In this document: in pieces, positions 3,213 to 19,550 of the stretch
How the letters are laid out: every line of letters begins with the position of its first letter
How positions within the stretch are numbered: position 1 is the first letter of the stretch
Assembly (NCBI GenBank): GCA_947168565.1
Contig: CAMVMM010000014.1
Span: 1 to 61,185 of the forward strand
Length of the DNA: 61,185 nucleotides
Reading direction: 5' to 3'
Origin: an uncultured Clostridia bacterium
GTDB lineage: Bacteria > Bacillota > Clostridia > Christensenellales > CAG-138
Translations under genes and position numbers: made by a program
The notes under the pieces: generated by a model
Told to the model about the DNA's origin: nothing
The model's input: the letters and a program-made list of their open reading frames with translations, nothing else
The model's database searches: none

Positions 3213-4427
3213 ATGCAGAAGATTCAAATGAAGACCCCCCTTGTAGAGATGGACGGCGACGAAATGACCAGGATCATCTGGAAGATGCTCAAGGACGAGC
3301 TCATTCTTCCCTTTGTCGATCTCAAAACCGAATACTACGACCTCGGCCTCGTTAAGAGGGATGAAACGGACGACAAGATCACCGTTGAAGCGGCGGAAGC
3401 CTGCAAGAAGTACGGCGTTGGCGTAAAATGCGCCACCATCACCCCGAACGCGCAGCGCATGACGGAGTACAACCTCAAGAGGATGTACAAGAGCCCCAAC
3501 GGCACCATCCGCGCCATTCTGGACGGCACCGTTTTCCGCGCTCCCATCACCATGGACTGCCTCAAGCCCTCGGTAAGGAGCTGGAATAAGCCCATCACCA
3601 TCGCCCGTCACGCCTATGGCGACATCTACAAGTGCCAGGAATACCGCGTACCCGGCCCCGGCAGGGCGGAGATAAAGTTCACCGATGAAAACGGCAACGT
3701 GACCTTCGATGAAACCGTGTTTGAGTTCAAGACTCCCGGCGTTCTCATGGGCACCTACAATAAGGACGATTCCATCGAGAGCTTCGCAAACGCCTGCTTC
3801 CAGTACGCCCTCTCCACCAAGCAGGATCTGTGGTTCTCCACCAAGGATACCATCTCCAAGAAGTACGACCACACCTTCAAGGATATCTTCCAGAGGATCT
3901 ACGACGAAAAATACAAGGCGGAATTTGAAAAGCTCGGCCTTGAATACTTCTACACCCTTATCGACGACGCCGTGGCCCGCGTTATCCGCTCAAACGGCGG
4001 CTTCATCTGGGCGCTCAAGAACTACGACGGCGACGTTATGAGCGACATGGTTGCCACTGCGTTCGGCAGCCTTGCCATGATGACCAGCGTGCTTGTGTCC
4101 CCAGACGGAAACTACGAATACGAGGCGGCGCACGGCACCGTTACCAAGCATTACTACAAGCACCTTGAGGGCGAGTCCACCTCCACCAACTCCATGGCCA
4201 CCATCTTCGCATGGAGCGGCGCGCTTCGCAAGAGGGGCGAGCTGGACGGGATAAACGAGCTTGTGGATTTTGCAAACAAGCTTGAGCAGGCCTCCCTTGA
4301 AACCATCGCCTCCGGCTTTATGACCAAGGATCTTGCGCTTCTTGCCGATATGGACAAGAAAACCGTTTGCACCACGGACGGCTTCATAAAGAAGATCCGC
4401 GAGAGGCTGGAAATGCTGCTTGCGTAA
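3213..4427 (+). CDS. icd: NADP-dependent isocitrate dehydrogenase, eukaryotic-like type
   Basis: Oxidative decarboxylation of isocitrate to 2-oxoglutarate, supplying NADPH and glutamate carbon. The 404 aa protein has the signature of the homodimeric type II (eukaryotic-like) class: VEMDGDEMTRIIW at the N-terminus, KCATITPNAQR, SPNGTIRAILDGTVFRAPI, YDGDVMSDMVA and the NADP-site stretch around AAHGTVTKHYY. It is not the E. coli-type Icd. Codon use is biased to C-ending and AAG codons, suggesting high expression. Start is supported by an AAGGAG site. It is separated from mscL by 116 bases and is followed 33 bases later by the SEC-C gene. Confidence 0.95.
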   Translation: MQKIQMKTPLVEMDGDEMTRIIWKMLKDELILPFVDLKTEYYDLGLVKRDETDDKITVEAAEACKKYGVGVKCATITPNAQRMTEYNLKRMYKSPNGTIRAILDGTVFRAPITMDCLKPSVRSWNKPITIARHAYGDIYKCQEYRVPGPGRAEIKFTDENGNVTFDETVFEFKTPGVLMGTYNKDDSIESFANACFQYALSTKQDLWFSTKDTISKKYDHTFKDIFQRIYDEKYKAEFEKLGLEYFYTLIDDAVARVIRSNGGFIWALKNYDGDVMSDMVATAFGSLAMMTSVLVSPDGNYEYEAAHGTVTKHYYKHLEGESTSTNSMATIFAWSGALRKRGELDGINELVDFANKLEQASLETIASGFMTKDLALLADMDKKTVCTTDGFIKKIRERLEMLLA

Positions 4428-6326: not shown

Positions 6327-8699
6327 ATGGAAATCGCATTTTATGAAAATATACCCGTGATCCCGCTCAGAGGGCTTGTGGTGCTGCCGTATTCGGCAAT
6401 GAGCTTTGACGTTGGCAGGGAAAAGAGCGTGCTTGCCGCAAGGGCGGCCATAAAGGGCAACGGGCTTGTGATGCTCACCACTCAGCATGATGAAAAAAAG
6501 CCGGAGGTTTCCGCAAGCGAGCTGCATACCTGTGGCTGCCTCTGCCGCATAAAGGGCAGCGAAAAGCTTGAGGGCGATTCGCTCAGGCTGCTTGTGTCGG
6601 GTCAGTGCCGCGCAAGGATAAAGAGCTTTGTTGAGGGCGGTGAATTTTTTGCCGCGGATATCGAATGCTATGAAAACGAGGAGCCAAGCGAGGCGGAGTC
6701 CCTTTCCGTGCTGCGCAGCATGATAGAGGAGAGCGCGGATAAATACGTTTCCATCATAGGAAATTCCCAGCTTAAAACAACGCTTGCCTTCATTTCAAGA
6801 AGCTCGAACGATGCGGAATACGCCTACCGCGTTGCAAACGTGTTTCTGCTTGCAAAGGCGGACAGGCAGACGATCCTTGAGGCGGAGGGCTATGCCGAGC
6901 GCGCCGTTGCACTTGTGAATATGCTGAACCGCGAGGCGGAGAAGGTGCGCATAAAGCAGCTTATCGACGCAAACGTTAAGGAGCAGATCGATAAAAACCA
7001 GCGCGAATACTATCTGCGCGAGCAGATGAAGGCGGTTCGCAAGGAGCTTGGGGAGGACGAGCAGTCCGAGGCGGAGGATTTCAGAAAGCGCCTCAACGAA
7101 AAGACCTTCCCCGAGGAGATTCGGAAAAAGCTTGAAAAGGAGATAGAGCGCTTCGCCCTGCTTCCCGCAAGCTCCCACGAAACGCCCTCCATGCGCACCT
7201 ATATCGACACGCTTCTAAGCCTTCCCTACACCGAGATGAGCGAGGACGATCTGGACGTTGAGCACGCCAAAAGGGTGCTTGATGAGGATCATTACGGGCT
7301 TGAAAAGGTGAAGGACAGGATCCTGGAGTTCATGGCGGTAGCCAAGCTCACCGGCAAGGTGAACGGGCAGATAATCTGCTTCGTCGGCCCTCCGGGCGTG
7401 GGCAAAACATCCATCTCCTCCTCCATCGCAAGGGCGCTCGGCAGAAAGTTCGTTCGCATGAGCCTTGGCGGCATCCACGACGAGGCGGAGATTCGCGGCC
7501 ACAGGCGCACCTATATAGGCGCAATGCCCGGCAGGATAATCGCCGCCATGCGTCAGGCGGAAACGGTGAATCCCGTGCTTCTGTTTGATGAAATAGATAA
7601 GCTCGGCGCGGATTCCTTCCACGGCGACCCCGCTGCGGCGATGCTGGAGGTGCTGGACAGCGCGCAGAATTTTGAATTCCGCGATCATTTCCTTGAAATG
7701 CCGTACGATCTTTCAAAGGTGCTTTTCATCACCACGGCGAACGATATGGCGGGCATTCCGCGCCCCCTGCTCGACCGCATGGAGATAATCGAGGTGCCGA
7801 GCTACCTTGCCAATGAAAAGGTGGAGATAGCGTTCCGCCACCTTGTGCCGCGCCAGCTTGAAAAGAACGGCTTCAAAAAGAGCATGCTCAGCATACCGCG
7901 CGAGAGCATTGCGGAGATAATAAACGGCTACACGCGCGAGGCGGGCGTTCGCAGCCTTGAAAGAAGCATCGCCAAGGTCTGCCGCAAGGCGGCGGTGGAG
8001 ATAGCGGGCGGTAAAAAGCGCGTTACGGTAAGCAAAAAGAAGGTTGAGGAATACCTTGGTGCGCCGCGCTATACCTACGATCCCGCGGATAAGGAGCCGC
8101 AGGTCGGGCTTGTGAACGGGCTTGCGTGGACGAGCGTGGGCGGCGAAATGCTCACCGTGGAGGCCGCCGTGCTTCCCGGCACGGGCAAGATCCAGCTCAC
8201 GGGCCAGCTTGGCAGCGTGATGCAGGAGAGTGCGCAGGCGGCGATAACCTGCATAAGGGAGCGGGTGGATATGCTTGAGCTTGAGAGCGATTTCTACGGC
8301 AAAACGGATATCCACGTGCATCTTCCCGAGGGCGCCATCCCAAAGGACGGCCCCTCGGCGGGCATAACGCTGTTTACTGCGGTCACAAGTGCGCTCACGG
8401 GCATTCCGGTGCGCTCCGGGCTTGCCATGACGGGGGAGATCACGCTGCGCGGCAGGGTGCTGCCAATCGGCGGGCTTCGTGAAAAGCTGCTTGCCGCCGT
8501 GCGCGCGGGTATCGACACCGTGCTGATACCGGAAAAGAACCGCAAGGATCTGCGGGAAGTGCCCTCGGATATCCTTGAGGCGCTGAATATAATCTACGTT
8601 GACAATGCGGACGAGGTGCTGAAGCACGCGCTCACAAGGCTGCCCGAAAAGCGCGTTGTGCTGCCTCAAGCGGCGGTTCAGGCGGGCGCACCCGCGTAA
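6327..8699 (+). CDS. lon: ATP-dependent endopeptidase Lon
   Basis: Cytosolic AAA+ protease for damaged and regulatory proteins. The order is an N-terminal LON substrate domain (residues 1-200), a coiled linker, an AAA+ module with Walker [10 protein letters not shown] and Walker [11 protein letters not shown], and a C-terminal serine/lysine protease domain. The catalytic serine sits in [10 protein letters not shown] and the lysine about 43 residues on, in [10 protein letters not shown]. 790 aa is a normal LonA length. Start supported by AAAGGA upstream and a good promoter. It is followed by coat-like genes, probably transcribed separately. Confidence 0.97.
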
Positions 8700-8815
8700 G
8701 GGAGCGGCGCAAGCTTCAAAAAACCGGTAAAAATTAACTGAATATGCCCTTCGTGAGCGAGCCAAACTATGCTTGCAGGCAAAAGCCTGAAAAACTCATC
8801 ACGGAGGGCATTATT

Positions 8816-9190
8816 ATGCACACAAACGGCAATGGTCAGGGCATGAATACCGATCGGTTTTTCAGCTCAAGCCCGGGCAGCCCCAATTCGGGCTGTTACG
8901 ATAGCGGGAGCGGCTCCGCAAGGAGCGAATGCTCAGGCGGCAGCGGCAAAAGCTGCATGAGCACTGCGGGCTCGCGCTGGAACACCGAGGCGGCAAGCGG
9001 CCCGATAGACAGCACGGATCTTTCGATCATTCAGGATGAAATGCATACCGAGGCGCTTCTTTACAAGAAATGCGCGGTATACGCGGGCTATTTCAGCGAT
9101 CCCCGGCTCAAGCGCGTGGCCGAGACCGCCGCGGAGCATCATCGCAGGCATTTTGATTCGCTCCACGGCTACCTGAATTCGTCTAACTAA
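8816..9190 (+). CDS. Ferritin-like coat protein (CotF-type) with Ser/Gly-rich N-terminus
   Basis: 124 aa. The first ~60 residues are low complexity and rich in Ser, Gly, Asn and Cys. The rest is a two-helix segment (DLSIIQDEMHTEALLYKKC, then AETAAEHHRRHFDSLHGYL) resembling ferritin-like CotF/DUF2383 spore proteins. I chose the ATG at 8816, which has GGAGGG seven bases upstream, over the in-frame ATG at 8744, which has none. A second CotF-like gene follows after 14 bases, so the two probably form an operon. Coat location is inferred from the family, not shown. Confidence 0.7.
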   Translation: MHTNGNGQGMNTDRFFSSSPGSPNSGCYDSGSGSARSECSGGSGKSCMSTAGSRWNTEAASGPIDSTDLSIIQDEMHTEALLYKKCAVYAGYFSDPRLKRVAETAAEHHRRHFDSLHGYLNSSN

Positions 9191-9204: not shown

Positions 9205-9480
9205 ATGCAGAATTCATCCATGACCGAGCAGGAGCTGCTCACAGACCTTCTTCAGTCCGAAAGAGCGGCGGTTAAGCAATACGCCGAAAGCTGCACCGAG
9301 GCAGGCAGCATGAATCTTCGCAATCTGCTCATAAGCTGTATGAGCGAGGTAAGCGAGGATCAGTTCGCCGTGTTCGAGCAGATGAAGCAGCGCAATCTTT
9401 ACAAGACCACTCCCGCCAAGCAGCAGGAGATACAGACCGCGCAGCAGGATATGACCGAGCTTGCGCAAAAGACCTGGTAA
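9205..9480 (+). CDS. Spore coat protein, CotF family
   Basis: 91 aa all-helical protein with the COG5577/CotF pattern: TEQELLTDLLQSERAAVKQY, then a second helix ending in EDQFAVFEQMKQRNLY and a Thr/Gln-rich tail. Such proteins are small ferritin-like units of the spore coat or crust in Bacillus and Clostridium. A GGAGG site precedes the start. It lies 14 bases after another ferritin-like gene. Expression during sporulation is inferred from the family only. Confidence 0.82.
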   Translation: MQNSSMTEQELLTDLLQSERAAVKQYAESCTEAGSMNLRNLLISCMSEVSEDQFAVFEQMKQRNLYKTTPAKQQEIQTAQQDMTELAQKTW

Positions 9481-14267: not shown

Positions 14268-14846
14268 ATGAAAGCAACGGGAATAGTCAGAAGGATAGAC
14301 GAGCTGGGCAGGGTGGTGATACCCAAGGAGATACGGCGCACGCTCCGCATCCGTGAAGGGGATTCGCTTGAGATCTTTACGGACAGGGAGGGCGGCGTGA
14401 TACTGAAAAAATACTCCCTTGTGGGCGAGCTGGGCGATTTTGCCAGGGAATACGTTGATTCCCTGCACCAGTCGGTGGGGCATACCGCCGTGATATGCGA
14501 TAAGGATACCATCGTGGCGGCGGCAAGCTCGTCCAAAAAGGAGCTTGGGCCCGGTGCGCCCCTTGCGCCGGAGCGTGCGATAAGCGCGGAGCTTGATGAG
14601 GCGATCTCCACGCGGCGCGCTCAGGTGCGGCTTGCCGCGAAGGGGGACGCGATGATCCCCGTGACGGCGGGGGAGAACGCGGCGCAGCGCTACGCGGCGC
14701 AGCTCATTCAGCCCATTCTTGCGGGCGGGGATACCATTGGCGCGGTGCTGCTGCTTTCACGGGAGCGGGATGCTTCGTTTTCCCCGGCGGACGTAAAGGT
14801 TGCCGAAACTGCCGCGGCATTCCTCGGAAGGCAGCTTGAAAACTGA
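14268..14846 (+). CDS. spoVT: Stage V sporulation protein T, AbrB-family regulator
   Basis: Transcription factor active in the forespore, controlling late sigma-G genes and germination in Bacillus. The N-terminal 50 residues are an AbrB swapped-hairpin DNA-binding domain (MKATGIVRRIDELGRVVIPK, then RRTLRIREGDSLEIF). The rest is a GAF-like domain, as in SpoVT. 192 aa against the usual ~178. I start at 14268, because the upstream in-frame codons lack a site and the AbrB domain canonically begins MKATG. GGAGGA lies 12 bases upstream. A dispersed stem-loop sits in the upstream region. Confidence 0.93.
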   Translation: MKATGIVRRIDELGRVVIPKEIRRTLRIREGDSLEIFTDREGGVILKKYSLVGELGDFAREYVDSLHQSVGHTAVICDKDTIVAAASSSKKELGPGAPLAPERAISAELDEAISTRRAQVRLAAKGDAMIPVTAGENAAQRYAAQLIQPILAGGDTIGAVLLLSRERDASFSPADVKVAETAAAFLGRQLEN

Positions 14847-14966
14847 TCGGGTATCGAAAAAGGGAACGGAGGTCTGCGCTGTCTGCGGCGGGCTTCCGCT
14901 TTTTGGCATTTGAAAGCAAGAATGCCCGCCGAAAGCAAAAACAAAACGTCCGACAAAGCTCCGCTT

Positions 14967-14973
14967 TTCGACA
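14967..14973 (-). promoter_or_regulatory. Candidate Spo0A box (reverse orientation)
   Basis: TTCGACA is the reverse complement of the 0A-box core TGTCGAA, inside CTTTTCGACAAAAC, so the flanks also match. A one-mismatch copy (TCCGACA) lies at 14949-14955. Both are upstream of the orphan Spo0A-C gene. Confidence 0.55.
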
Positions 14974-15131
14974 AAACAGTAAAAGCGGCGGAGCCGAGTC
15001 AGGCTTGCTATTTTAGGTATCAAGAAAAAATGCAGGCATCTCAAGAAAAATCATGCAAAGCAAATGCCGGGTATGCGTAAATTACGCTTGTCAAGATATG
15101 AGCTAAAATATATTTTATTATTAACGGATTT

Positions 15132-15155
15132 TGTCGAAAATTATCGTATTATAAT
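15132..15155 (+). promoter_or_regulatory. Perfect 0A box upstream of a -10 element
   Basis: TGTCGAA at 15132-15138, in the context ATTTTGTCGAAAATT, matches the Spo0A-box consensus. It ends 11 bases before TATAAT at 15150-15155, so it sits where the -35 region should be. Spo0A-activated sigma-A promoters such as spoIIG in Bacillus have this arrangement. The next gene starts at 15196. Confidence 0.65.
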
Positions 15156-15195
15156 TAACTCCACTATCAGTAAACACAGCAAGGGAGGAAAATCA

Positions 15196-15576
15196 GTGTT
15201 TGTTAATTTACCTGCAAGATATTTGCTTGAGCTCGGCTTCTTTCCTCAGCACAGCGGGTTTGGCTACCTGGTATACGCCATCGGAATGATCTCAAACGAC
15301 CCAATGGGGTATTACACGGGCAAAACGGATATTTTCGCGGCGCTCGGCAGGGAGTACGAGGTGTCGGAAAGCTGCGCCAAGCGCTGTATGCATTACTCCA
15401 TCCAGTGCGCGTGGAATCTGCCGAATAATCAAAATCTGCACGGCCTGTTTTCGTACTGCGCAAGAAACTGCCCGCCCTCATTAAGCGAATTCATGTGCAG
15501 GATCGCGCTTGAATTAAACGATACTCAGCACGAGCGCGCACACGGAATCGGCATAAAGGCGGGCGCTTCCGTATAG
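15196..15576 (+). CDS. Orphan Spo0A C-terminal (DNA-binding) domain protein
   Basis: 126 aa consisting almost only of a domain like the Spo0A effector domain, with no receiver. LLELGFFPQHSGFGYLVYAI matches the Spo0A stretch LxELGxPxHxKGYxYLxxAI. KRCMHYSIQCAW corresponds to the recognition helix region, and PSLSEFMCRIALEL to the C-terminal PTNSEFIAMVADKL. I start at GTG 15196, which has AGGGAGGA at good spacing; the in-frame ATG at 15064 lies upstream of the promoter. Recognition-helix residues differ from Spo0A, so its DNA target may differ. The 0A box in its promoter suggests control by Spo0A itself. Confidence 0.75.
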   Translation: MFVNLPARYLLELGFFPQHSGFGYLVYAIGMISNDPMGYYTGKTDIFAALGREYEVSESCAKRCMHYSIQCAWNLPNNQNLHGLFSYCARNCPPSLSEFMCRIALELNDTQHERAHGIGIKAGASV

Positions 15577-15581
15577 CCGCG

Positions 15582-16508
15582 TTACAGCCCGCCCAGCCTT
15601 GAGCAGAGCGCACAGTAGCGATCTATCACCTCAAGCTGAAGATGCTTCAGGCTGCCGCTGGTTTCGACCCTGTTTTCGGAAACGGCGGAGATAAAGCGCG
15701 TAAAGCAGCCGGTCAGCTCCACAAAATGCTCCTCAATAAGCCCAAGCGCACCTGTGTCATCCTCCATTTCGGAAAGCGCCGCACGGCAGGAGCGGATCTT
15801 TTCAAGCATTTCGTTTGCTATGGCGGAGGCGTACTCCACGCTTCGCTCCTCGCTGTCGAAGCGGATGGCTTCATCATTCAGCCTGTCTATAAGGCTTTTT
15901 GCAAGCTGAACGCTTGCGCCTATCGCGGAAAGCCGCCGCTCATCCGCCTGCGATCTGATCACTGCGCCGCTGCATTTGATCGGGTAAACCACGCCGGCAT
16001 ACCCCTGCTCGGTCAACCTTTTGCAAACGCTGTTTGCCGCCGCCTCGGTGGTGTAGCAGGAGGCGAGGATGCGCACCCCCTCATCGGTTGAAAGCGCGTA
16101 GCCCGCCGCGCCGAGGGAGCGCAGGGAGGAGATCATGCCCTGCGCGTTTGCGGCGGAATCGTAAACTCCAAGCTGCAGGCCGAAAAGCTCGAGCGGCGGC
16201 AGATCGAATTCCTCCGTCCTTACTTCGGGAGCGGGCGAGGGAGCGCCCTGCGGCTGAGCCGTGCCGTCCGCACCCTGCTGAGCCGGCAGCTCCGAGGGGG
16301 AGGGGGAGGCAGCGGCGCTATGCTTAAACACCTTGCCGACTATCGCCGCGCCTATCGGAGTGACCACCAACACATACACCAGCGCCGCCGTCATCAAAAG
16401 CAGCAGAACTGCGCCGATGATCCCACCCTCGCCGCTTTGCCTTGAGTATTGAGCCGATCTGTACGCGCCCCTTGCGCGGCGCCTGCTTCTTCTGCGTCTG
16501 TATTCCAT
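15582..16508 (-). CDS. Single-pass membrane protein with SPOR-like region
   Basis: 308 aa. A short Arg-rich cytoplasmic start (MEYRRRRSRRRARGAYRSAQ), one membrane segment (GAVLLLLMTAALVYVLVV), a Pro/Ser/Ala-rich spacer, then a ~75 aa SPOR-like domain (FGLQLGVYDSAANAQGMISS, later AGYALSTDEGVRILA). SPOR domains bind denuded peptidoglycan at division or sporulation septa. The C-terminal 120 residues are helical and unknown. Start at 16508 has GGAGG four bases upstream. The longer frame to 16751 only translates an upstream 9-base tandem repeat. It is convergent with the orphan Spo0A-C gene, six bases apart. Confidence 0.78.
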   Translation of the reverse strand: MEYRRRRSRRRARGAYRSAQYSRQSGEGGIIGAVLLLLMTAALVYVLVVTPIGAAIVGKVFKHSAAASPSPSELPAQQGADGTAQPQGAPSPAPEVRTEEFDLPPLELFGLQLGVYDSAANAQGMISSLRSLGAAGYALSTDEGVRILASCYTTEAAANSVCKRLTEQGYAGVVYPIKCSGAVIRSQADERRLSAIGASVQLAKSLIDRLNDEAIRFDSEERSVEYASAIANEMLEKIRSCRAALSEMEDDTGALGLIEEHFVELTGCFTRFISAVSENRVETSGSLKHLQLEVIDRYCALCSRLGGL

Positions 16509-16774: not shown

Positions 16775-16779
16775 TTGAA

Positions 16780-17109
16780 CCCGAGCAAGCCGTAAGCCGA
16801 GTTCTGTTTATGTGATCATCTATCTGGACGCAAGGTTACCCTTGCGCTCAAGCGATTACGGGGAGCGTGACGGACAGCCATTGAATGCTCCCATTTCAAT
16901 CTTGCTCCGAGTGGGGTTTACAGGGCACGCTTCGTCGCCGAAGCGTCGGTGGGCTCTTACCCCGCCTTTCCATCCTTACCGCGAAAGCGGCGGTTTATTT
17001 CTGTTGCACTTTCCTTGAAGTCGCCTTCACCGGGTGTTACCCGGCACTCTGTCCTGCGGAGCTCGGACTTTCCTCGCAAAAATTCGCGCGATCACTTGGC
17101 TTACTCGGG
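16780..17109 (-). ncRNA. rnpB: RNase P RNA, bacterial class A
   Basis: Catalytic RNA that trims tRNA 5' leaders. On the minus strand the conserved GAGGAAAGTCCGAGCTCC is followed by AGAGTGCCGGGTAACACCCGG, and the 3' end has ACAGAACTCGGCTTA, the universal P4 core. The ends pair as helix P1: CCCGAGTAAGCC at 17109-17098 with GGCTTGCTCGGG at 16791-16780, one G-U wobble. This sets a length near 330 nt. It is followed by a strong terminator and lies downstream of the zinc-ribbon gene. Confidence 0.95.
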
Positions 17110-17169: not shown

Positions 17170-17889
17170 CTACTCACGAATAAAGAGTATCCTGCCGCAG
17201 TTTTCGCAGCGCACAAGCGAGGTGCCGGCGGCAACGCGCTTTTCCACCACGGCGGGCAGCGCCATGTGGCAGCCTCCGCATTTGCCGCCTGAAAGCATGG
17301 CGATGGGGGCGGCATGGTTCTTTTTAAGGGTGGTATACCTGTCGAAAAGCTCGTCCGGAATATCCTTGCGCATCTCCTCAAGCCTATTGGTTATCTCGTC
17401 GATCTTCGGAGCGAAGGTCTCCTTTTCGGCGTCGCAGGCGGCGCGGACCATATCATAATCCTTCTTTGCCTTGACCACCTTTGAGTAGGTGGCGTTGATG
17501 AACTCGGTGAGCTTGTCGCAGCTCTCCACAAGCGCGCTCAAATCACGGCCGTAGGCGTTTATCCTGCCCACAAGCTTTTCTATCGCCTTTTTGGATTCGG
17601 TAAGCTCCTCCGGCGTGGCCTCCTCGTCAACCTCCATCACGTCCAGCTCGGATTTTTCAAGGTCGTAGTCGTGAAGCAGCGCCTCAAGCTGGGTCTGCAT
17701 GGAGGCAAGCTGACTGTTTTTGGCCTCAAGCTCGCTCTCAAAGCCGTTTATAACGTCCATCTGCTCGCGCAAAAGCTTATTGAGCTTGCCGCGCTTGCGA
17801 TAGTTTGGGGAGGAATGCATCTCTTTATTCAGCTTGGCAAGCTCAAGCTCGGCCTGCTGATACTCCCAAAGTTTATCGAGTTGATTCAT
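17170..17889 (-). CDS. Coiled-coil protein with C-terminal C4 zinc ribbon (COG1579/CdsZ type)
   Basis: 239 aa. Residues 1-175 are a long antiparallel coiled coil. The C-terminus is a C4 zinc ribbon with GGKCGGCHMALP and RCENCGRILF. The family, once DUF164, is found beside nif3 in many bacteria, as here, 17 bases downstream of it. The molecular role is not settled; nucleic-acid or ribosome association has been proposed. It is the last gene of a minus-strand run and is followed by rnpB. Confidence 0.85.
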   Translation of the reverse strand: MNQLDKLWEYQQAELELAKLNKEMHSSPNYRKRGKLNKLLREQMDVINGFESELEAKNSQLASMQTQLEALLHDYDLEKSELDVMEVDEEATPEELTESKKAIEKLVGRINAYGRDLSALVESCDKLTEFINATYSKVVKAKKDYDMVRAACDAEKETFAPKIDEITNRLEEMRKDIPDELFDRYTTLKKNHAAPIAMLSGGKCGGCHMALPAVVEKRVAAGTSLVRCENCGRILFIRE

Positions 17890-17906
17890 TTGATACCTCC
17901 TGATAT

Positions 17907-18686
17907 TTATTGGATATTGTCGCTTTTCGCAGTGCGAAAAACAGGAGTGTTTCGGCTTGATATTATTATTTCCACGCCCTCCGTATTCGCCTTGAGGTAT
18001 TCAGCAAGCGGGCGCAGCACGGGGTTTTCGGTTTCGTAATGTCCGGCGGTGATCACGGCAAGCCCCATCACGCCGGCTTCTATCGCCTGGGAGTGCTTGC
18101 ATTCGCCCGTAACGTAGCAATCCGCGCCGTAAGCTTTTGCAAGGGCGCAGTCCCCTCCACCGGAGCCGCCCATCACGGCAACGCGGCGCACAAGGCGGTT
18201 TTCACCGCTGATATGGGCAACGGCGCCAAGCTTTTTTTCCACAAGGCGGGCAAAATCGTCCAGCTCCACAGGCTCGGCAAGCTCGCCCACGCGCATGATG
18301 TTTTCCGGGGGAACGGCATAGGCGTTTTCAATGCCGAGAAGCCGGCAAAGCTCAGTGTTCACGCCGCCCTCCGCCGCGTCAAGATTGGTATGCGCGGCAA
18401 AAAGAGCTATGCCGGAGCGAATAAGCTTATACACTGCTGCGGAGGCGGGATCGTTCGGTAGAATGCGCTTGAGCGCGTTGAAAATAAGCGGATGATGCGT
18501 CAGCACAAGGTCGCACTCAAGCTCGGCGGCCTCGTCCGCAACGGCGCAGGTGCAGTCCAGCGCCACAAGCACGCGGCGCACCTCGCTTTTTTCGGCGCCT
18601 ATAAGCAGCCCGCAGTTATCAAAGCCCAGCGCCGTTTCGGGCGGGGCAAGCCTGTTCATAACGGCTGTAAAATCAGCAAGCTTCAT
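17907..18686 (-). CDS. Nif3-like dinuclear metal-centre protein (YqfO family)
   Basis: 259 aa short-form NIF3/DUF34 protein. Metal ligands are visible in LVLTHHPLIF, FAAHTNLDAAEGGVN and the late GHYETE motif. The family forms hexameric rings with a bimetal site. It is annotated as GTP cyclohydrolase 1 type 2, but its physiological function is unsettled. The trmK-nif3 pairing is the same as yqfN-yqfO in Bacillus subtilis. It is followed closely by the zinc-ribbon gene, so a three-gene unit is likely. Confidence 0.92.
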   Translation of the reverse strand: MKLADFTAVMNRLAPPETALGFDNCGLLIGAEKSEVRRVLVALDCTCAVADEAAELECDLVLTHHPLIFNALKRILPNDPASAAVYKLIRSGIALFAAHTNLDAAEGGVNTELCRLLGIENAYAVPPENIMRVGELAEPVELDDFARLVEKKLGAVAHISGENRLVRRVAVMGGSGGGDCALAKAYGADCYVTGECKHSQAIEAGVMGLAVITAGHYETENPVLRPLAEYLKANTEGVEIIISSRNTPVFRTAKSDNIQ

Positions 18687-18724
18687 TCCTTCCTCCGTTG
18701 ATCACGGCGCATTCTGCCGCGTTG

Positions 18725-18766
18725 CCGTGCCGCAATGCCGCAATGCCGCAATGCCGCAATGCAGCG
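18725..18766. repeat. Eight-base tandem repeat upstream of nif3
   Basis: Four units of TGCCGCAA (period eight) preceded and followed by degenerate copies, in the gap between trmK and nif3. Eight bases is not a coding period. It may vary in length between strains. Confidence 0.8.
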
Positions 18767-18782
18767 ATGCAAAGCGCCGCAG

Positions 18783-19550
18783 CTATTGCCGCTCGTTTAA
18801 AAAATAATCTATAAGCCGCCTTGTGTTTTCAATTTCGCAAACAAGGGCCCTCGGCGGCTCGCCTGCGGAGCTTGAGCGCTCAAGCTTCTTTTCCATTATG
18901 CCAAGGTAGCGCTCCATCATCGCAAACTGTGTGGGATCGCGCCTTTGGATCGGCGCCGCTCCGAACTGATACCAGCCCTCGGGCATGAATGAGGGCGGCG
19001 GCCCGGCGCGCTCGGGGTCGTACTTCGCGGCGATAAGCTGATAGTATCTTCCCGCGTCCAGGCAAACGGCTTCATCGAGTATGCGGTAGCCGCTTTTATA
19101 CAGATATTCCCTCAGCTCCGCTTCGCCGCGCATAGGCTGCATCACGATCCGCTCAAGCCCTTGGGCAACCGCCTTTCCGCCCTCGAGTATCGCGGCAATA
19201 AGCTCACCGCCCATGCCGAGCAGCGCGGCTGCGTCCGCATCAAGCCCGGAATAGCCGTCGAACCCGCCGCAGCAGCGGAAGGTGAAGCGATCCTCTAAGC
19301 CGAGCGAAGAAGCAAGCGCGCGCGCTTTGTCAAGGGAGGGGGCGCTGACGTCCGAGGCTATGACCCTTTGGCAAAGCCCCAGCCTCAATGCCTGCGCGGA
19401 AAACTTGCCGTGGTCGCAGCCTATATCCGCAAGCACCCTCACCCTGCCCAAAAGCGTGAGTGCGCAGCAAAGCCTGGGCCGCAGCTCGCCTTCGCGCCTT
19501 TTTGGCGGCATTTGATCGGAATGGTTCATATTACAGTCTGTCGCCGTCAT
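18783..19550 (-). CDS. trmK: tRNA (adenine22-N1)-methyltransferase
   Basis: SAM-dependent methyltransferase of the D-loop of tRNA. Motif I is VRVLADIGCDHGKFS; the later IVMQPMRGEAELREYLYKSG is characteristic of TrmK (YqfN). It is followed by nif3 as in Bacillus. The true start is uncertain: the first ATG, at 19550, directly abuts the T-run of an upstream terminator and lacks a ribosome site. ATGs at 19529 or 19511 are better placed for the enzyme core but also have weak sites. Confidence 0.88.
   Translation of the reverse strand: MTATDCNMNHSDQMPPKRREGELRPRLCCALTLLGRVRVLADIGCDHGKFSAQALRLGLCQRVIASDVSAPSLDKARALASSLGLEDRFTFRCCGGFDGYSGLDADAAALLGMGGELIAAILEGGKAVAQGLERIVMQPMRGEAELREYLYKSGYRILDEAVCLDAGRYYQLIAAKYDPERAGPPPSFMPEGWYQFGAAPIQRRDPTQFAMMERYLGIMEKKLERSSSAGEPPRALVCEIENTRRLIDYFLNERQ

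Follow-up and report, generated by a model that had tools for sequence, protein, structure and literature searches.

Spo0A is activated by phosphorylation at a conserved Asp, and the accessible part of PMC11210211 describes this route as common to endospore formers. According to the portion of PMC3485338 available to us, the isolated Spo0A DNA-binding domain binds its targets without phosphorylation, and Spo0A contacts G2, C4 and G5 of TGTCGAA, where single changes lower the affinity about ten-fold. Truncated, effector-only versions of Spo0A are carried by phages, as stated in the accessible text of PMC10294663. The available part of a paper on the evolution of the Spo0A pathway (PMC6136694) makes no mention of a paralogue, an effector domain or the word pseudo, and a literature search, mostly below full-text level, returned no report of a chromosomal receiver-less Spo0A lineage.

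We analyzed a stretch of 61,185 nucleotides from an uncultured Clostridia bacterium (contig CAMVMM010000014.1; hereafter the window), in which a first-pass annotation had pointed out a short protein with the Spo0A DNA-binding domain alone, here referred to as the orphan. It shares the homologous C-terminal effector domain with full-length Spo0A (sequence matches to 1fc3 and 1lq1), but it has no receiver, its recognition helix is changed and it belongs to a clade separate from canonical Spo0A. The phage-borne spo0A homologues, as far as PMC10294663 could be consulted, likewise consist of the effector domain without a receiver; unlike them, the orphan is chromosomal, most copies in the genus retain its neighbours, and its phage similarity is weak. 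The domain in the available portion of PMC3485338 is the same one and is active without phosphorylation, but that fragment was made in the laboratory and carries the Spo0A helix, whereas the orphan occurs naturally and its helix differs. Pseudo-receiver response regulators (PMC12632262, a paper whose accessible part does not mention Spo0A) resemble the genus's own Spo0A, which likewise lacks phosphotransfer residues, and differ from the orphan, which has no receiver. The genes and segments concerned are the following.

14271..14846, plus strand: spoVT (AbrB-type domain and SpoVT_C; PF15714, E 1.9e-36), upstream of the orphan and codirectional with it
15183..15188, plus strand: ribosome-binding site GGGAGG, preceding the orphan GTG start (sequence)
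15196..15576, plus strand: receiver-less Spo0A paralogue of 126 aa, Spo0A_C domain only (Pfam, PDB sequence match, conservation in the genus)
15364..15414, plus strand: segment aligned with the Spo0A recognition helix (residues 57-73, SESCAKRCMHYSIQCAW; alignment with the own Spo0A, TPSKVERAIRHAIEVSW)
15582..16508, minus strand: SPOR-domain protein (PF05036, E 7.6e-8), downstream convergent neighbour of the orphan
L076:5103-5912 on contig C35, minus strand: own full-length Spo0A, from the same genome as the window

The open reading frame was confirmed, and an HMM search, proposed earlier as a check on the domain assignment, matched Spo0A_C (PF08769) over residues 8-106 with 53.4 bits (E 2.9e-14), exceeding the gathering score of 25. 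No second Pfam domain was found in the 126 aa up to E 10, and the receiver is absent. The best sequence matches in the PDB were Spo0A effector domains (1fc3, E 1.6e-6; 1lq1, E 2.4e-6). Against the Spo0A equivalog TIGR02875, the protein reached 29.3 bits, below the cut-off of 200, with residues 11-107 aligned to model positions 157-255. The start codon is GTG; a longer frame from 15064 is unlikely because the aligned start is ATG in three relatives (G021, G023 and G025). Two Spo0A_C genes were detected in the window's genome (assembly about 92% complete), the orphan and the full-length Spo0A on contig C35. Without a receiver the orphan is therefore without the usual phospho-switch, which supports the earlier proposal of control that does not involve phosphorylation.

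Comparison with 10 other genomes of the genus (g1) revealed an orthologue in nine of them. Relatives of the organism include metagenome-assembled Clostridia whose sources are sheep and water buffalo. The remaining genome, G020, is 68% complete, and no spoVT was seen there either; the two Spo0A_C genes that it has encode full-length proteins, with open frames of 270 and 303 codons. With G016 contributing two short copies, 11 orphan copies were compared, the window's included. Over 10 copies of the genus, 17 of the 126 alignment columns were invariant. The pN/pS values of five pairs were 0.156/0.756, 0.172/0.629, 0.122/0.709, 0.227/0.745 and 0.204/0.409, giving ratios of 0.21, 0.27, 0.17, 0.30 and 0.50, all below 1, with synonymous sites near saturation in four; ratios below 1 do not distinguish a DNA-binding function from a different one.

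A second full-length Spo0A-like paralogue (about 300 codons open) was observed in 8 of the 10 other genomes, whereas the window's own genome, at a completeness of about 92%, showed none. One such protein of 306 aa (L124, G021:C8) has a strongly diverged N-terminal half and the helix VERAARYAIE.

Synteny with spoVT, which the first-pass annotation had suggested looking for in relatives, is kept: the orphan, spoVT and the SPOR gene occur together at 7 of the 10 other copies (8/11 counting the window). The spoVT product matched TIGR02851 with E 2.1e-69 and 233 bits, slightly below the cut-off of 235.9. It is encoded in the same direction as the orphan in G021, G023 and G025 and in the opposite one in G017, G018, G019 and G022, so that in four of the seven other adjoining copies (L068, L069, L071 and L074) the gene order is kept and the direction flipped. 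Three copies lie away from spoVT, namely that of G024 and both of G016. The G024 orphan (L067:7674-8072) is situated about 200 bp upstream of a gene pair (L067:7182-7472 and 6894-7175) homologous to window 8744-9190 and 9205-9480, the latter encoding a Coat F domain protein. Further along the window, a class A RNase P RNA gene was found at 16778-17107 on the minus strand (284 bits), and the open reading frames listed over it are probably spurious.

The recognition helix had been described as different from that of Spo0A, and comparison with the full-length protein of the same genome bears this out. The helix of the own Spo0A is that of the solved proteins (VERAIRHAIEV), and its Glu and Arg positions are presumably the base-reading ones, an assumption we take from the 1lq1 work. 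None of the 11 orphan copies retains the Glu of VERAIRH, which is replaced by K (4), R (4), S (2) or V (1). The Arg that follows is kept in 9/11 copies, the second Arg in 0/11, and His has become Tyr in 10. The helix residues of Spo0A that would mark a 0A-box-binding effector domain are thus missing from the orphan, with Glu and second Arg both lost throughout. Because the orphan helix has diverged in this way in the genus, its target is most likely a different or a relaxed site and not the classical 0A box. Among 19 receiver-less proteins of other genera (see below), 15 have an acidic residue (Glu or Asp) ahead of the Arg and retain the second Arg; those without this pattern are L107, L118, L120 and L126.

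The full-length Spo0A of the genus is itself unusual. In an alignment with the receiver 1dz3, the phospho-acceptor Asp corresponds to Glu56 of the own Spo0A and the second pocket Asp to Gly11 (own Spo0A numbering); we take the Asp aligned with Glu56 to be the phosphorylated residue of Spo0A. All 11 genomes of the genus have Glu at this site, while the conserved Lys and Ser positions of the receiver remain. We examined 89 canonical Spo0As of the family (f1), taken from 89 of the 98 genomes in which a match was found. Two (G039 and G042) are truncated and give no residue; the 87 readable ones comprise 36 Glu, 50 Asp and 1 Val. Glu was present in every examined member of g1, g4, g5, g14, g16, g17, g18, g21 and g23, some of them represented by one genome only. 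The second pocket Asp is lost in all 36 Glu proteins, and both Asp are kept in 33 of the 50 Asp proteins. Fifty Spo0As sampled from other families of the order (30 loci of top matches and 20 picked by hand) had 46 Asp, 3 Glu and 1 Asn. A literature search, again mostly below full-text level, returned no report of a Glu-type Spo0A lineage. The Glu may mimic the phosphorylated state or may merely disable the switch. The contrast between the orphan and a phosphorylated Spo0A, implied in the first-pass annotation, is doubtful because the Spo0A of this genus has no phospho-acceptor Asp.

The intergenic region between spoVT and the orphan contains the following elements.

14949..14955, minus strand: one-mismatch 0A core TGTCGGA (sequence)
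14967..14973, minus strand: perfect 0A core, reverse (sequence; not conserved)
15088..15114, plus strand: conserved upstream element TTGTCAAG-N10-AAATATATT, 35 bp before the -10 element (genus comparison)
15132..15138, plus strand: perfect 0A core TGTCGAA, in the promoter spacer (sequence; not conserved in the genus)
15150..15155, plus strand: -10 element TATAAT, equally far from the upstream element in G021, G023 and G025

A perfect core at the -35 site of a TATAAT promoter, with a reverse perfect core and a one-mismatch core further upstream, had been proposed for this region. All of these sequences are present, but the promoter core does not occupy the -35 site: its end is only 11 bp before TATAAT, which places it in the spacer, and taking TTGTCG as the -35 leaves 13 bp, short for sigma-A. 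In G021, G023 and G025 TATAAT is placed identically, and the TGTCGAA core is absent from that place.

What is shared in the genus is a different sequence. The pattern TGTCAA-N12/13-AATATAT precedes the orphan in 7/11 copies, with spoVT in either direction, and is missing upstream of the orphans in G018, G024 and both G016 copies. Its distance to the -10 is 35 bp where the hexamer is TATAAT (G000, G021, G023 and G025) and 34 bp where the hexamer is weaker (TATCCT in G022, TATCAT in G019, TATTGT in G017). In the window, the element has one match at up to 2 mismatches versus 0.06 expected. The fixed spacing argues for a site used by the orphan promoter. Read on the other strand, the element becomes TTGACA followed by an AT-rich stretch and resembles a sigma-A -35 with an UP element; it may therefore not be a regulator site. 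Over the 11 genomes, a looser form of the pattern matched 153 places versus 43 for the reversed control, and a stricter form gave 19 matches versus 1, of which 6 are orphan promoters. Several of the strict matches elsewhere look like opposite-strand sigma-A promoters (TTGACA with a TATACT-like box), so we do not read the enrichment as a regulon and rejected the element as a regulon mark.

TGTCGAA is not enriched over the whole window (8 found versus 6.58 expected). For the 349-bp intergenic region, the presence of two perfect cores has P 0.0008 under a first-order Markov model, in a test made post hoc. Conservation of the 0A boxes in relatives, on which the earlier proposal of a 0A-box promoter depended, does not hold inside the genus, where a perfect core within 260 bp upstream occurs in 2/11 copies at different places, with P 0.098 in a weak test; among the 10 other copies only that of G023 has one, at -24 on the other strand. 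Canonical targets served as a positive control. Perfect cores within 300-320 bp upstream were found for spo0A in 1/11, spoIIE in 1/10 and spoIIAA in 1/9 cases, and cores with at most one mismatch and with G2, C4 and G5 intact for spo0A in 7/11, spoIIE in 4/10, spoIIAA in 5/9 and the orphan in 4/11, figures in which spoIIE and spoIIAA were found below the family cut-offs, several starts were guessed and the G019 spoIIAA was left out. Since canonical targets seldom carry a perfect core, its lack is weak evidence in this genus. Conservation thus does not support a 0A-box promoter as the shared control of the genus, a negative weakened by the scarcity of perfect cores at canonical targets. Upstream of spo0A itself, one-mismatch cores at -99 to -104 in 5/11 genomes (L183, L184, L186, L187 and L188) could possibly form a conserved autoregulation site.

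Spo0A_C is present in 98 of the 103 genomes of the family. From 20 family stretches fetched, we left out the full-length L124 and kept 19 receiver-less proteins of nine other genera, of 92-128 aa by our choice of starts. In a tree of 30 receiver-less proteins (ten genera), 15 canonical Spo0As and 11 full-length paralogues, the receiver-less proteins formed one clade apart from the canonical and the full-length paralogous Spo0As (FastTree 0.997, UFBoot 100), inside which the 11 orphans of the genus formed a clade of their own (0.923, UFBoot 97). Orphan branches are far longer than those of canonical Spo0A; because the domain has about 100 residues and evolves fast, long-branch attraction may have contributed to the receiver-less clade. 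A profile of the lineage, searched against 297 genomes of the order, placed 11 matches from the family on top, followed by a 130-codon frame in G201, a genome of another family, with few other short frames among the matches listed. The receiver-less Spo0A paralogue lineage is old in this bacterial family. A tie to the Glu-type Spo0A was looked for and not found: receiver-less paralogues also occur in g13, g20, g25 and G013 of g11, whose examined Spo0As keep Asp.

The genomic settings of the receiver-less paralogues differ between genera. At two g23 loci (L108 and L122), the gene converges on a sigma-70 family gene resembling sigH, and at L108 a SpoU-type rRNA methylase gene adjoins. A cyclophilin gene adjoins the paralogue in g20 and, by sequence likeness only, at two g13 loci. 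The G005 paralogue is near a RidA-type gene and relatives of the window proteins at 17170-19550, the window's own neighbourhood.

In the nine other genera, a perfect core lies within 260 bp upstream of 6/19 receiver-less genes, about 1 being expected. The bearers are all three g13 genomes, G030, G036 and G004, and four of the six paralogues keep the Glu-Arg..Arg of the helix. With a background of about 0.05 cores per 260 bp in the fetched neighbourhoods, the binomial tail takes values of 0.098 (genus), 2.9e-4 (other genera) and 8.5e-5 (all 30); with the alternative rate of 2/30 found upstream of 30 longer open reading frames in the same stretches it is 1.1e-3 for the other genera and 6.0e-4 for all 30, all of these figures counting related species more than once. 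In G036 (g18), two inverted perfect cores 4 bp apart (TTCGACA-AAAA-TGTCGAA, L107 about 3322-3340) were observed upstream of a receiver-less paralogue on the minus strand.

We consider it an even call that the orphan is a phosphorylation-free DNA-binding regulator of changed specificity, made from its own promoter and placed near sporulation control. As a stand-alone effector domain from the old receiver-less lineage it would act on transcription by binding DNA, with an activity set by the amount of protein and not by phosphorylation. Its promoter would probably be of the sigma-A type, helped by the conserved upstream element, and the diverged helix would direct it to a different or relaxed target site in place of the classical 0A box. 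A putative role near sporulation control is suggested by its position, since it usually adjoins spoVT.

The main rival, which has real support in sister genera, is that Spo0A switches the orphan gene on or off via 0A boxes and that the orphan protein in turn occupies these boxes, thereby tuning or blocking Spo0A. The perfect cores at 15132 and 14967 and those in front of the other-genera paralogues, most of which retain the Spo0A-like residues, speak for it; the rarity and shifting places of perfect cores in the genus, the location of the 15132 core in the -10/-35 spacer and the changed helix speak against it, and for the window gene we regard it as rather unlikely. The feed-forward or antagonistic branch of Spo0A control put forward in the first-pass annotation is thus plausible for the lineage, where the 6/19 cores make feed-forward by Spo0A a fair hypothesis, and conjectural for the gene in the window.

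Still less probable is a partner protein that reads no bases and alters output by pairing with the Spo0A effector domain on DNA or with SpoVT. Such a role would agree with a Spo0A_C domain that is still recognised although its helix drifts, and with the adjoining spoVT in 8/11 copies, while the three copies away from spoVT argue against it. The least probable reading is a phage-derived or decaying remnant with no role. Phages carry truncated, effector-only Spo0A in the accessible text of PMC10294663, and the orphan resembles phrog_24603 (E 2.6e-9) and, weakly, one phage record (27%, E 8e-3). No relative was found in viral contigs by pattern and tblastn, however, and pN/pS is below 1; the open frame, start and promoter are kept in close relatives, and the neighbours in most copies of the genus. 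Given the weak phage similarity, the lack of a viral-contig relative and the chromosomal neighbours kept at 7/10 copies, we consider a phage origin unsupported.

Returning to the orphan as a re-specified, phosphorylation-free regulator, we tentatively suggest a wider picture, which we hold to be possible and somewhat on the unlikely side. In this genus and part of the family, sporulation control may have moved off phosphorylation, with a Spo0A that has Glu for Asp and has lost the pocket Asp, and beside it a separate, vertically kept receiver-less lineage, both governed by protein amount and by separate DNA sites; the orphan would then represent a branch with new specificity in a Spo0A system that needs no kinase. 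With Glu-type Spo0A in 11/11 genomes and a kept receiver-less regulator, the genus would offer a natural test of sporulation entry without a phospho-switch, and through the receiver-less lineage the effector-only phage Spo0As gain relatives encoded on chromosomes.
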